Source: Ignisphaera sp.
GTDB taxonomy: Archaea > Thermoproteota > Thermoprotei_A > Sulfolobales > Ignisphaeraceae
Length of the DNA stretch: 62,605 nt
Direction: 5' to 3'
Assembly (NCBI GenBank): GCA_028275825.1
Contig: JAPWTX010000004.1
Coordinates: 1-62,605 of the forward strand
The notes under the pieces are model-generated. The model worked only from the letters and a program-made list of their open reading frames with translations. It was not told the origin of the DNA and searched no databases. A program made the position numbers and the translations under genes. Within the stretch, counting starts at the first letter, position 1, and the number at the start of each line of letters is the position of its first letter. Positions 38,329 through 41,676 of this stretch are shown here, one piece after another.

Positions 38329-39894
38329 ATGCAGAAGAGCATAGTTAGTGTTACTATGGAAATAGCCTTAGAGGGATCTGCTAACTATGCAGGAGGTTTA
38401 GGGGTTTTAGAGGCTGACAAGTTTTATGGTGCTTCAAGACTGGGCTTACCTTATATTGTTGTATCGCCTTTCTATCCTAGTGGTTATGTTGATTGGGATT
38501 ACACTAATAGAGTTAGATTTATCGAAACTAGACATAGACATAGCCTGGCATTTTTAAGTAGGTTGCGTTTCTTGAGAAGCATTGAGGTGAAGAGAAGTGA
38601 TGGCAGGCTTTTAGCTGAAGCAGATGTATTTGAATATCCTCATGGTTCTGCTAGGGCTATTCTGTATAGAATCAGAAAACCCATATCTGTTGCTAGGCTT
38701 TTTAGATATCTCTATAGGCATCATAGTGACGAATGCACATACTATGTTGTTGCAGCAGCTGTGGCAAGTGAAATCATAAGGAGGCTTGCTAGTGATGAAG
38801 GGGTTTATGTTGTGGATGTGCAGGAAGCACACTTAGCTCTAGTGCCTTATCTCTTGCCAAAGGATATTAGAACAAGGTTTGTTACCCATACACCTGGTCC
38901 CTGGGGTCATCCAAAGCTATGTAAAGAAGCTGAAGAGATTTTAGGAATTTCGCTACCAAATGTAAAGACAATGACTGAAGTTGCTATGGAGGTAGTTGAA
39001 AAGGTTTTTACAGTATCGAGAAAACACTTTGAGATTACAAAGACCTTCTTTCCTAAGTATATCAATAAGATGAGCTATGTTACAAACGCTATAGATGTTG
39101 AGAGATGGCAAAGAGTGAAGAGAGACCCAGGATCTGCAAAAGAGTTTGCAGAGGTTCATGAAGGTTTAAAGAATGAGTTTAGCTCCATTATCAAAGCCCT
39201 TACAGGAAAAAATATAGGTAGTAGAATGCTAGTGTCATGGGTTAGAAGAATAGTAAAGTATAAGAGGCCCTACTTTATTGAATGGCTTGTTGAGGAAAAC
39301 AGTGATTTGAAAGACAGGATATTTATAGTTACTGCAGGTAAGCCTCATCCAAGTGACGCGTGGGGTAAAGAGATGGCAACAATATTTGCTAGGTTTAGTA
39401 GAACTCTTAGCAACTTCTTTTATTATCCAAGCTATGGAACAGACTTTGCCTATTACGCATTATCAGCCTCGGATCTCCTCCTATTTACACCATTTAGCTG
39501 CTGGGAAGCTAGTGGAACGAGTATGATGAAGGCAGGGGCAAATGGTGTACCAACGCTCTCCTCAAGAGATGGCGCAAGCTTAGAACTCATAGAGGATGGA
39601 TTTAATGGCTGGTTCTTCGGCAGAGAATTGAATCAAATCATAGACCTTGAAAGTGAAGATGCTGGAAAAATTGATGAAGAGGAGTATACAGATTTTGTAA
39701 AGAGACTTGAATCAATAATCGACTTATATGAAAGAGATAGGGAAAAATTCTATGAAATTGCTTACAACAGCTATAAAACCTTTACACAAATGGTAGACAT
39801 AACAAGGCTTCTAAAACAATATTATGGCGAATATTTGTCAAAGTTAGGCACAGGAAAGAATTCAAAAGAAGTTGAACAACCTAGTAATATCTGA
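38329..39894 (+). CDS. alpha-glucan phosphorylase-like GT-B enzyme
   Basis: 521 residues. YAGGLGVLEADKF near the N-terminus, FIVTAGKPHPSDAWGKEM, and the WEASGTSMMKAGANGVPTLS block with the putative PLP lysine, then DGFNGWFFG, match the short archaeal glycogen phosphorylase group (GT35) more than glycogen synthase. The reaction would release glucose 1-phosphate from storage glucan. The stop codon TGA (39892-39894) falls within the first bases of the IS200/IS605-like element, so the last residues may have been altered by that insertion. GalT and GalK downstream also feed hexose 1-phosphates. Confidence 0.75.
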   Translation: MQKSIVSVTMEIALEGSANYAGGLGVLEADKFYGASRLGLPYIVVSPFYPSGYVDWDYTNRVRFIETRHRHSLAFLSRLRFLRSIEVKRSDGRLLAEADVFEYPHGSARAILYRIRKPISVARLFRYLYRHHSDECTYYVVAAAVASEIIRRLASDEGVYVVDVQEAHLALVPYLLPKDIRTRFVTHTPGPWGHPKLCKEAEEILGISLPNVKTMTEVAMEVVEKVFTVSRKHFEITKTFFPKYINKMSYVTNAIDVERWQRVKRDPGSAKEFAEVHEGLKNEFSSIIKALTGKNIGSRMLVSWVRRIVKYKRPYFIEWLVEENSDLKDRIFIVTAGKPHPSDAWGKEMATIFARFSRTLSNFFYYPSYGTDFAYYALSASDLLLFTPFSCWEASGTSMMKAGANGVPTLSSRDGASLELIEDGFNGWFFGRELNQIIDLESEDAGKIDEEEYTDFVKRLESIIDLYERDREKFYEIAYNSYKTFTQMVDITRLLKQYYGEYLSKLGTGKNSKEVEQPSNI

Positions 39895-40208
39895 CCTCCT
39901 CCCCACCCTAAAAGGTGAGAACACTTTACATCTATCCAGGTTTACAACCGAAAGCCTCGCCTTTTAAGGCGGGGATGGGTAGAAAAGCTTATAAACTCTC
40001 TCTATCTAATTGCCCTCAGTGATGAGTATTAAACTCTTTGAGCCATTGACGATGATAAACAGCCTACTCATAACCCCGAGTCCCAAGAGGGATAGGGGTA
40101 ATGGGCCGGAGACCAGGCCCGGGATTAAACCCTCAGGAAGAGGGAATGTAATCCCAAACCTCCTCGCTCTAGGGGAACCCCCGCTCTTCAGGGCGGGGAG
40201 GAGGTCAG
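39891..40208 (+). mobile_element. IS200/IS605-related miniature element without transposase
   Basis: 318 bases bounded by perfect 14-bp inverted ends, CTGACCTCCTCCCC and GGGGAGGAGGTCAG, extending imperfectly to 19 bp. Each end is a hairpin of the type seen at right ends of archaeal TnpB elements (CCCGC...GCGGG, and the mirror ACC...GGT). No tnpA or tnpB frame survives. An internal GCCTCGCCTTTTAAGGCGGGG hairpin at about 39954 resembles another subterminal hairpin. The left end overlaps the phosphorylase stop codon. Confidence 0.65.
40022..40208 (+). ncRNA. candidate solitary omega-RNA-like scaffold
   Basis: The right part of the element is GC-rich and hairpin-dense: paired CCGAG/..., GGGCCGG...CCAGGCCC, GGGATT...AATCCC and the terminal CCCCCGC/GCGGGG hairpin followed by AGGAGGTCAG. 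This is the arrangement I recall for reRNA/omega-RNA at the 3' end of crenarchaeal tnpB genes, where the sequence after the terminal hairpin acts as guide. The apparent 73-residue ORF across it is a translation of this RNA and not a protein gene. Confidence 0.5.
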
Positions 40209-40330
40209 ATCTACGAGCATTCAGGGAGTAATTTCCAAAAACGTTTTGCAGTTTTTCATGTTCAAAACTGATTCATTTGGTTTATTGCTTAAATAAAATA
40301 TATTGTTCGAGAATTAGATTTGAGAACGCG

Positions 40331-40975: not shown

Positions 40976-41676
40976 AACTATGTCTGTAGAACATTCCATA
41001 GACACGGATTGCGCTGACCTTGACAACAATTTTAAATACTTGCAACCACTCGAAAATCAGTAATGGAGAAACAGCCTCCCAGCAAATATTAAAGCATTTT
41101 CTAATGCAGATTCATGTTAGATGTTATTGCCCTGACGACCTAATCATCTTTTCCCACATCAAATGCCATGCTTGCTTAAAACTTTATCATAGTCATAATA
41201 AACACATCTAATACCGAAAAACGCACTTCACTTACCCAAATTCCTCGACACTCATAGAAATATATCACCTAGCTTGTTATAGACAAGATTTAGAACTTTG
41301 AATAAATACCATGCCGGGAAAGAGCTGCACAAAATGTTCTATTAAAGAGATGCTGCATTTCAGAAATTTACAACTAAAAGCCTCACCATTTATGGCAAAA
41401 TGAAGAGAACACCTATAAATTTCCTCGACATGGTTCTTCCTAGGATGAATACTAAGGGCTTTGCAGCCCTGTAAATAATTAGAAAGTGTTTGTTGTAAGC
41501 ATTGCTGGTCTAGTAGGAATGTGGATAAGGATATTCTCATAAAATCTCTATGTTTGTATACTAACATGCTTATGAGGATTAAAGCCTTTTAATCAATAAA
41601 CTTACAGCTTATAATCTTTGACGATTTGTACCTTAGTATATTGTTAGTGTTAAAAGTGACTTAGATGTGATGAGAT
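40976..41676. other. 701-base gene-free region with an element relic
   Basis: No credible ORF on either strand; the longest minus-strand frame (41277-41567) shows no recognisable motif. At 41366-41400 a string TTTACAACTAAAAGCCTCAC and following TTTATGGC resembles 39941-39970 of the IS605-like element (TTTACAACCGAAAGCCTCGC...TTAAGGC), suggesting an older, eroded copy of the same hairpin. The galT promoter must lie near the right end. Confidence 0.45.

Follow-up and report, generated by a model that had tools for sequence, protein, structure and literature searches.

A gene-less IS605-type element family with an omega-RNA scaffold in Ignisphaera, one copy of which is nested in an older tnpB-element remnant

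The window analysed here, a 62.6-kb stretch of DNA from an Ignisphaera genome, contains a mobile unit of 263 bp (39946-40208, plus strand) that carries an omega-RNA scaffold, has a TTAC target before its left end and is inserted in the remnant of an older element of opposite orientation. Very probably, this unit is a non-autonomous, PATE-like MITE that derives from a parent with tnpA and tnpB, was presumably mobilised in trans to reach some 30 copies and, in the window, became nested in an older HgcC-like element. The original prediction had instead taken 39891-40208 for a single, solitary omega-RNA-like IS605 element of 318 bp without tnpB and with mirror-image right ends. The parts of both elements are the following:

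39891-39945, minus strand: right end and partial scaffold of the older tnpB-family element (HgcC-like, family B), from the family-B alignment and profile score
39942-39945, plus strand: TTAC target tetranucleotide, which precedes most full-length copies although their flanks are otherwise unrelated
39946-40208, plus strand: non-autonomous IS200/IS605 element (PATE-like) with the omega-RNA scaffold inside; copies in the same genome and in two congeners
39955-39974, plus strand: left-end hairpin CCTCGCC-TTTTAA-GGCGGGG, common to tnpA+tnpB and tnpB-only elements
39982-39994, plus strand: archaeal BRE/TATA-like box GAAAAGCTTATAA, conserved in the copies and in parental left ends
39997-40064, plus strand: spacer of 68 bp, with GTGATGA...TTGA...ACGATGA inside, seen in copies of the 263-bp element only
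40065-40208, plus strand: tnpB-element 3' end (terminal tnpB codons, omega-RNA scaffold and right end), with 88-91% DNA identity to the parents L200, L201 and L202
40178-40198, plus strand: right-end hairpin, within an nhmmer right-end match at 40177-40208
40209-40226, plus strand: guide position ATCTACGAGCATTCAGGG, from its place relative to the right end; the sequence is that of the interrupted older element
40209-40228, minus strand: continuation of the older element past the insertion (CTCCCTGAATGCTCGTAGAT), from the joined-flank profile score

A search of the Ignisphaera genome to which the window belongs (G000, from a hot spring; a draft assembly of 1.81 Mb in 86 contigs, 98% complete) retrieved 53 matches to the region, and the full-length copies run from about 39941, that is, target bases followed by the element, to 40208. 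The predicted start at 39891 did not hold, because copies elsewhere begin at 39946, after TTAC, and the left 55 bp of the predicted unit belong to the older element. Most full-length copies consist of [N]TTAC followed by AACTGAAAGCCTCGCC... and ending in ...GGGCGGGGAGGAGGTCAG, with unrelated flanks on both sides and no target duplication, a pattern characteristic of IS200/IS605 elements that insert 3' of TTAC. A cognate TnpB would recognise this same tetranucleotide as its transposon-adjacent motif. In all, there are around 30 copies or remnants at unrelated sites, counted, as for all family-wide figures, from the search hits and 236 kb of genome sequence rather than from the whole genome; the census of left and right ends covers these same stretches. 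The original prediction was right in describing a solitary, omega-RNA-like IS605 element devoid of tnpB; the element is not unique. Identity to the window copy ranges from 96% downwards, with a median of 77% between copies, and the two youngest copies are 96.7% identical, indicating that transposition took place not very long ago. The family is present in three genomes of one genus (G000, G001 and G010). A second, decayed left-end remnant (TTTACAACTAAAAGCCTCACCATTTATGGC...) lies 1.2 kb downstream of the element, at 41367-41468, and no right end was found for it.

There is no transposase or accessory gene within the 263 bp, where only C-terminal codons of tnpB are left. The hairpins near both termini resemble the palindromes of IS605-type transposons, and both recur in tnpA+tnpB and tnpB-only elements; the left one falls within an nhmmer left-end match (39941-39979), and the right one is followed by the tail GGAGGAGGTCAG, which ends at 40208. 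The TATA-like box of the left end is a putative promoter. In the window as well as in other copies, the spacer shows a C box (GTGATGA), a D' box (CTGA/TTGA) and a C'-like box (GCGATGA) with a spacing like that of C/D sRNAs. It was nevertheless rejected as a captured C/D-box sRNA: it has no D box, Rfam lends no support (SNORD26, E-value 0.45), no copy of it occurs outside the 263-bp element in 41 genomes, and its conservation does not exceed that of the rest of the element.

The parental transposon was identified in two congeners (G001 and G002), in which a full IS605 element of 1.79 kb, with both tnpA and tnpB, bears matching ends. The similarity of the window copy to the parents extends over the 144 bp of the 3' end (88-91% identity) and over 53 bp of the left end (ca. 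90% identity). The 144-bp block includes the last ca. 45 codons of tnpB, and 40055-40183 matches residues 376-418 of TnpB with 67% identity. Unlike its parent, which contains both genes, the 263-bp element is gene-less, and the parent itself was not found in G000. A search for tnpB elements with matching ends, proposed along with the original prediction, retrieved related full elements from the congeners. G000 contains ca. 20 tnpB genes, all of them of other subfamilies and all recognised by PF07282 and none by PF01385, and lacks a cognate full-length TnpB, the longest matches being only ca. 29% identical. Likewise, Y1 TnpA is present in G001 and G002 but was not found in G000, either by a Pfam search, for which the controls worked, or by a search with the congener TnpA. 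With neither a Y1 tnpA nor a TnpB of the parental subfamily in G000, the parent is missing, at least from the assembly; given the draft state of the genome (86 contigs) and the breaking of contigs at repeats, the lack of a tnpA could be confined to the assembly.

On the minus strand, the left piece reads GTAAACCTGGATAGATGTAAAGTGTTCTCACCTTTTAGGGTGGGGAGGAGGTCAG and is similar to the 3' end of another tnpB lineage, termed family B (for instance, L053 at C42:34389-35820), whose scaffold contains CCCCTGAATGCCCCTCAGATGACAGATGTAAACCCGAATAGATG. Past the 263-bp element, the minus strand of 40209-40228 (CTCCCTGAATGCTCGTAGAT) carries on this same motif. With a family-B profile cleared of family-A members, the joined flanks reach 29.6 bits, compared to 19.5 bits for the left flank alone and 21.0 bits for the left flank followed by the left end of the element; a profile including family-A members separated less (24.2 vs. 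22.9 bits). When random 60-mers were attached to the left flank instead, one out of 300 attained 29.6 bits. The join is supported at ca. 0.3-1% against random sequence, although the decayed state of the older remnant leaves some doubt. The continuation of the family-B match across the flanks indicates that the 263-bp element inserted, at GGTTTAC^ATCT, in an older remnant of opposite orientation, whose 3' end would have read, before the insertion, as the uninterrupted GCTCGTAGATGTAAACCTGG. The TGA stop codon of the upstream glycogen synthase gene (39892-39894) is supplied by the right end of this remnant, and neither insertion is present in the orthologous locus of G010, the closest congener with the gene (82% amino acid identity).

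Quite unlikely, in our view, is that the left arm is a separate single-hairpin (terminal-only) element of 43 bp, or a stray right end, that merely sits beside the MITE without having been interrupted by it. G000 has many such elements, one of which lies 6 bp from another copy of the family (C33:2614-2654); however, the 5' half of the remnant is unlike that type and fits the family-B scaffold (GTAAACC.GATAGATG), and the family-B match runs on across the insertion point.

HgcC (Rfam RF00062), an RNA of hyperthermophilic archaea that ends in the same GGAGGAGGUCAG tail, is matched by the older remnant as well as by family-B tnpB elements. The match of the remnant (minus strand, 39878-39955) has an E-value of 0.0013 and 24.1 bits, under the gathering score of 50, and the intact family-B element L053, with 48.0 bits, is also below this threshold. 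The 263-bp element differs in having a sot0042-like scaffold and matches HgcC weakly (35.3 bits vs. the gathering score of 50). HgcC and sot0042 (RF02656) each represent the 3' end of one of two tnpB lineages that coexist and have the same right-end tail. Additionally, G000 contains short family-B pieces on the minus strand (C25:27982, C72:3948 and C70:20980) with homology starting from TTTAC (for example, TTTAC followed by ATGACAGATGTA... and the right end), which gives the impression that an internal, cryptic TTAC had become a new left boundary.

As for the scaffold of the 263-bp element, 40068-40199 matches Rfam family sot0042 with an E-value of 7.8e-10 and 42.4 bits, found with a relaxed threshold and under the gathering score of 88; the congener parent L200 yields 48.1 bits (E-value 1.2e-9). 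The GC-rich scaffold resembling the 3' part of tnpB loci, as originally described, is therefore present, since it is supported both by this match and by the identity of the 144-bp block to the parents. Family sot0042 occupies the same place as the window scaffold, the 3' end of tnpB plus the right end, although in the window it is detached from any tnpB and its 42 bits fall short of the gathering score of 88. The sotRNAs are held to be archaeal omega-RNAs (PMC12558985). The window RNA folds with a z-score of -5.0, with helices as in the structure of tnpB-linked relatives, and compensatory changes support this structure in a set of 12 relatives, from congeners and other genera and for the most part tnpB-linked (12 pairs, 28 cells; none of 500 shuffles as high). 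The scaffold hence combines the location of an omega-RNA, at the 3' end of tnpB up to the right end, with a conserved structure. In contrast, covariation does not exceed that of shuffles among 25 copies in the element's own genome (90.0% paired vs. 89.4% shuffled), the scaffold, at 0.84, is no better conserved than the spacer, at 0.82, and we found no sign in these 25 solitary copies that the structure is under selection. The simplest reading is that the omega-RNA is functional in the parents and that the copies here are decaying; a lack of covariation is what would be expected among stranded, decaying copies.

In omega-RNAs, the guide lies 3' of the right end (PMC10278001), and the string past 40208 indeed occupies, as originally proposed, the place of a guide. 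Nevertheless, its sole genomic match with up to three mismatches is its own locus, which is preceded by GTCAG, and we found no target with a TTTAC motif for it in the same genome at up to three mismatches.

We regard as very unlikely that the copies are dedicated solitary guide-RNA genes, kept because their omega-RNAs direct one of the ca. 20 other TnpB proteins in trans. Such a role would agree with the good folding of the scaffold (z-score -5.0), the retention of the TATA-like box and the abundance of tnpB genes in the genome, and there is a precedent in Thermococcus kodakarensis, which expresses HgcC RNAs not tied to transposase genes (PMC4247193). However, it is at odds with a covariation that is strong in tnpB-linked relatives and not above shuffles in the 25 copies, with a scaffold no more conserved than the spacer, with the guide having no target in the genome and with the available tnpB genes belonging to other subfamilies, with full-length TnpB products only ca. 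29% identical.

The nested insertion that we favour also removes the apparent oddity of an IS605 element with symmetric ends. The inverted pair (39889-39912 and 40187-40210) spans 24 nt with 92% complementarity and a perfect core of 16 bp, which contains the 14-bp perfect inverted ends noticed originally, and both arms are, as was also noticed, of the right-end type. Allowing up to three mismatches, GGCGGGGAGGAGGTCAG occurs at only two sites in the 62.6-kb window, both of them in the inverted arms, when 0.07 are expected by chance. The two right ends face outward because both lineages share the right-end sequence, so that what looked like the mirror-image ends of one element is explained by one insertion into another. 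That 39891-40208 is after all one element bounded by two right ends is hardly credible despite the 16-bp perfect arms, because no other full-length copy opens with a mirrored right end, all of them lacking the left arm and having a normal left end after TTAC, and because the left piece resumes beyond the insertion as a different element. With a normal left-end hairpin at its real left end (from 39946 onward), the 263-bp element is as asymmetric as other IS605 members.

Gene-less IS605 derivatives, or PATEs, are known from Haloquadratum walsbyi, where one type includes part of the tnpB C-terminal region, 52-bp terminal-only forms exist and PATEs also insert into one another (PMC3119063). The 263-bp element shares with them a short size, the lack of genes, near-terminal IS605-type palindromes, a tetra- or pentanucleotide target, a copy number in the tens, the insertion of one element into another and the existence of single-hairpin, "terminal-only" forms, as well as, with type HqIRS71, a portion of the tnpB C-terminal region; having all these main features in common with PATEs, it belongs to an already known kind. 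It differs in its crenarchaeal host (Ignisphaera), in its sequence, in the extra spacer between left end and scaffold, and in that parent and transposase are missing from the Ignisphaera genome. A PATE-like element of Halanaerobium hydrogeniformans likewise joins a left-end hairpin, the last 58 nt of tnpB and a full right end (PMC7290912), although it is bacterial, single-copy and without a described extra spacer.

The single-hairpin elements of Ignisphaera, which recall the terminal-only PATEs of 52 bp in Haloquadratum, consist of TTAC plus ca. 39 nt (AACTGAAAGCCTCGCCCTTTAGGGCGGGGAGGAGGTCAG), with the 5' flank of the left end fused to the right-end tail. They occur at ca. 14 unrelated sites in the same genome (e.g. 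G000:C22:7264-7307, C36:11109-11152, C25:34089-34132 and C51:30309-30352), and their exact pattern was found at 30 sites in GTDB genomes (L171-L199), mostly in Desulfurococcales MAGs, and on one viral contig (IMG/VR L233:5456-5498). They may be either core deletions or independently mobile.

The family most likely originated from an IS605 parent that lost tnpA and most of tnpB, so that what remained was a left end containing the TATA-like box and, from the tnpB element, the final 144 bp. A Y1 transposase made elsewhere would then have moved this unit in trans, by single-strand excision and insertion 3' of TTAC, and amplified it to ca. 30 copies. Single-stranded DNA transposition by TnpA to target sites is established for IS608 and ISDra2. 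For the window copy, the landing site was the 3' end of an older, HgcC-like tnpB element that lies behind the glycogen synthase gene and has the opposite orientation. A young copy, if transcribed from the left-end TATA-like box, could yield an omega-RNA with the flank as guide, and a cognate TnpB loaded with such an omega-RNA might cut the empty site, helping to retain or restore the insertion. With the partners missing and the copies diverging without structural constraint, the family in its present state is most likely a fossil that still includes some young members. It is unlikely that the 263-bp family represents an omega-RNA gene of minimal size with its own promoter, spreading as a parasite on TnpA/TnpB elements, with each insertion taking a new guide from its flank and relying on a TnpB encoded elsewhere, possibly a diverged one of the same genome.

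Our analysis links sot0042 and HgcC, both of them long-standing archaeal RNA families in Rfam, to two tnpB lineages that coexist in this organism. It also reveals a crenarchaeal family of gene-less elements that retains a promoter-like box, a guide-RNA scaffold and a right end after the parent transposon has gone, thereby providing a natural setting for asking whether orphan omega-RNAs work in trans.
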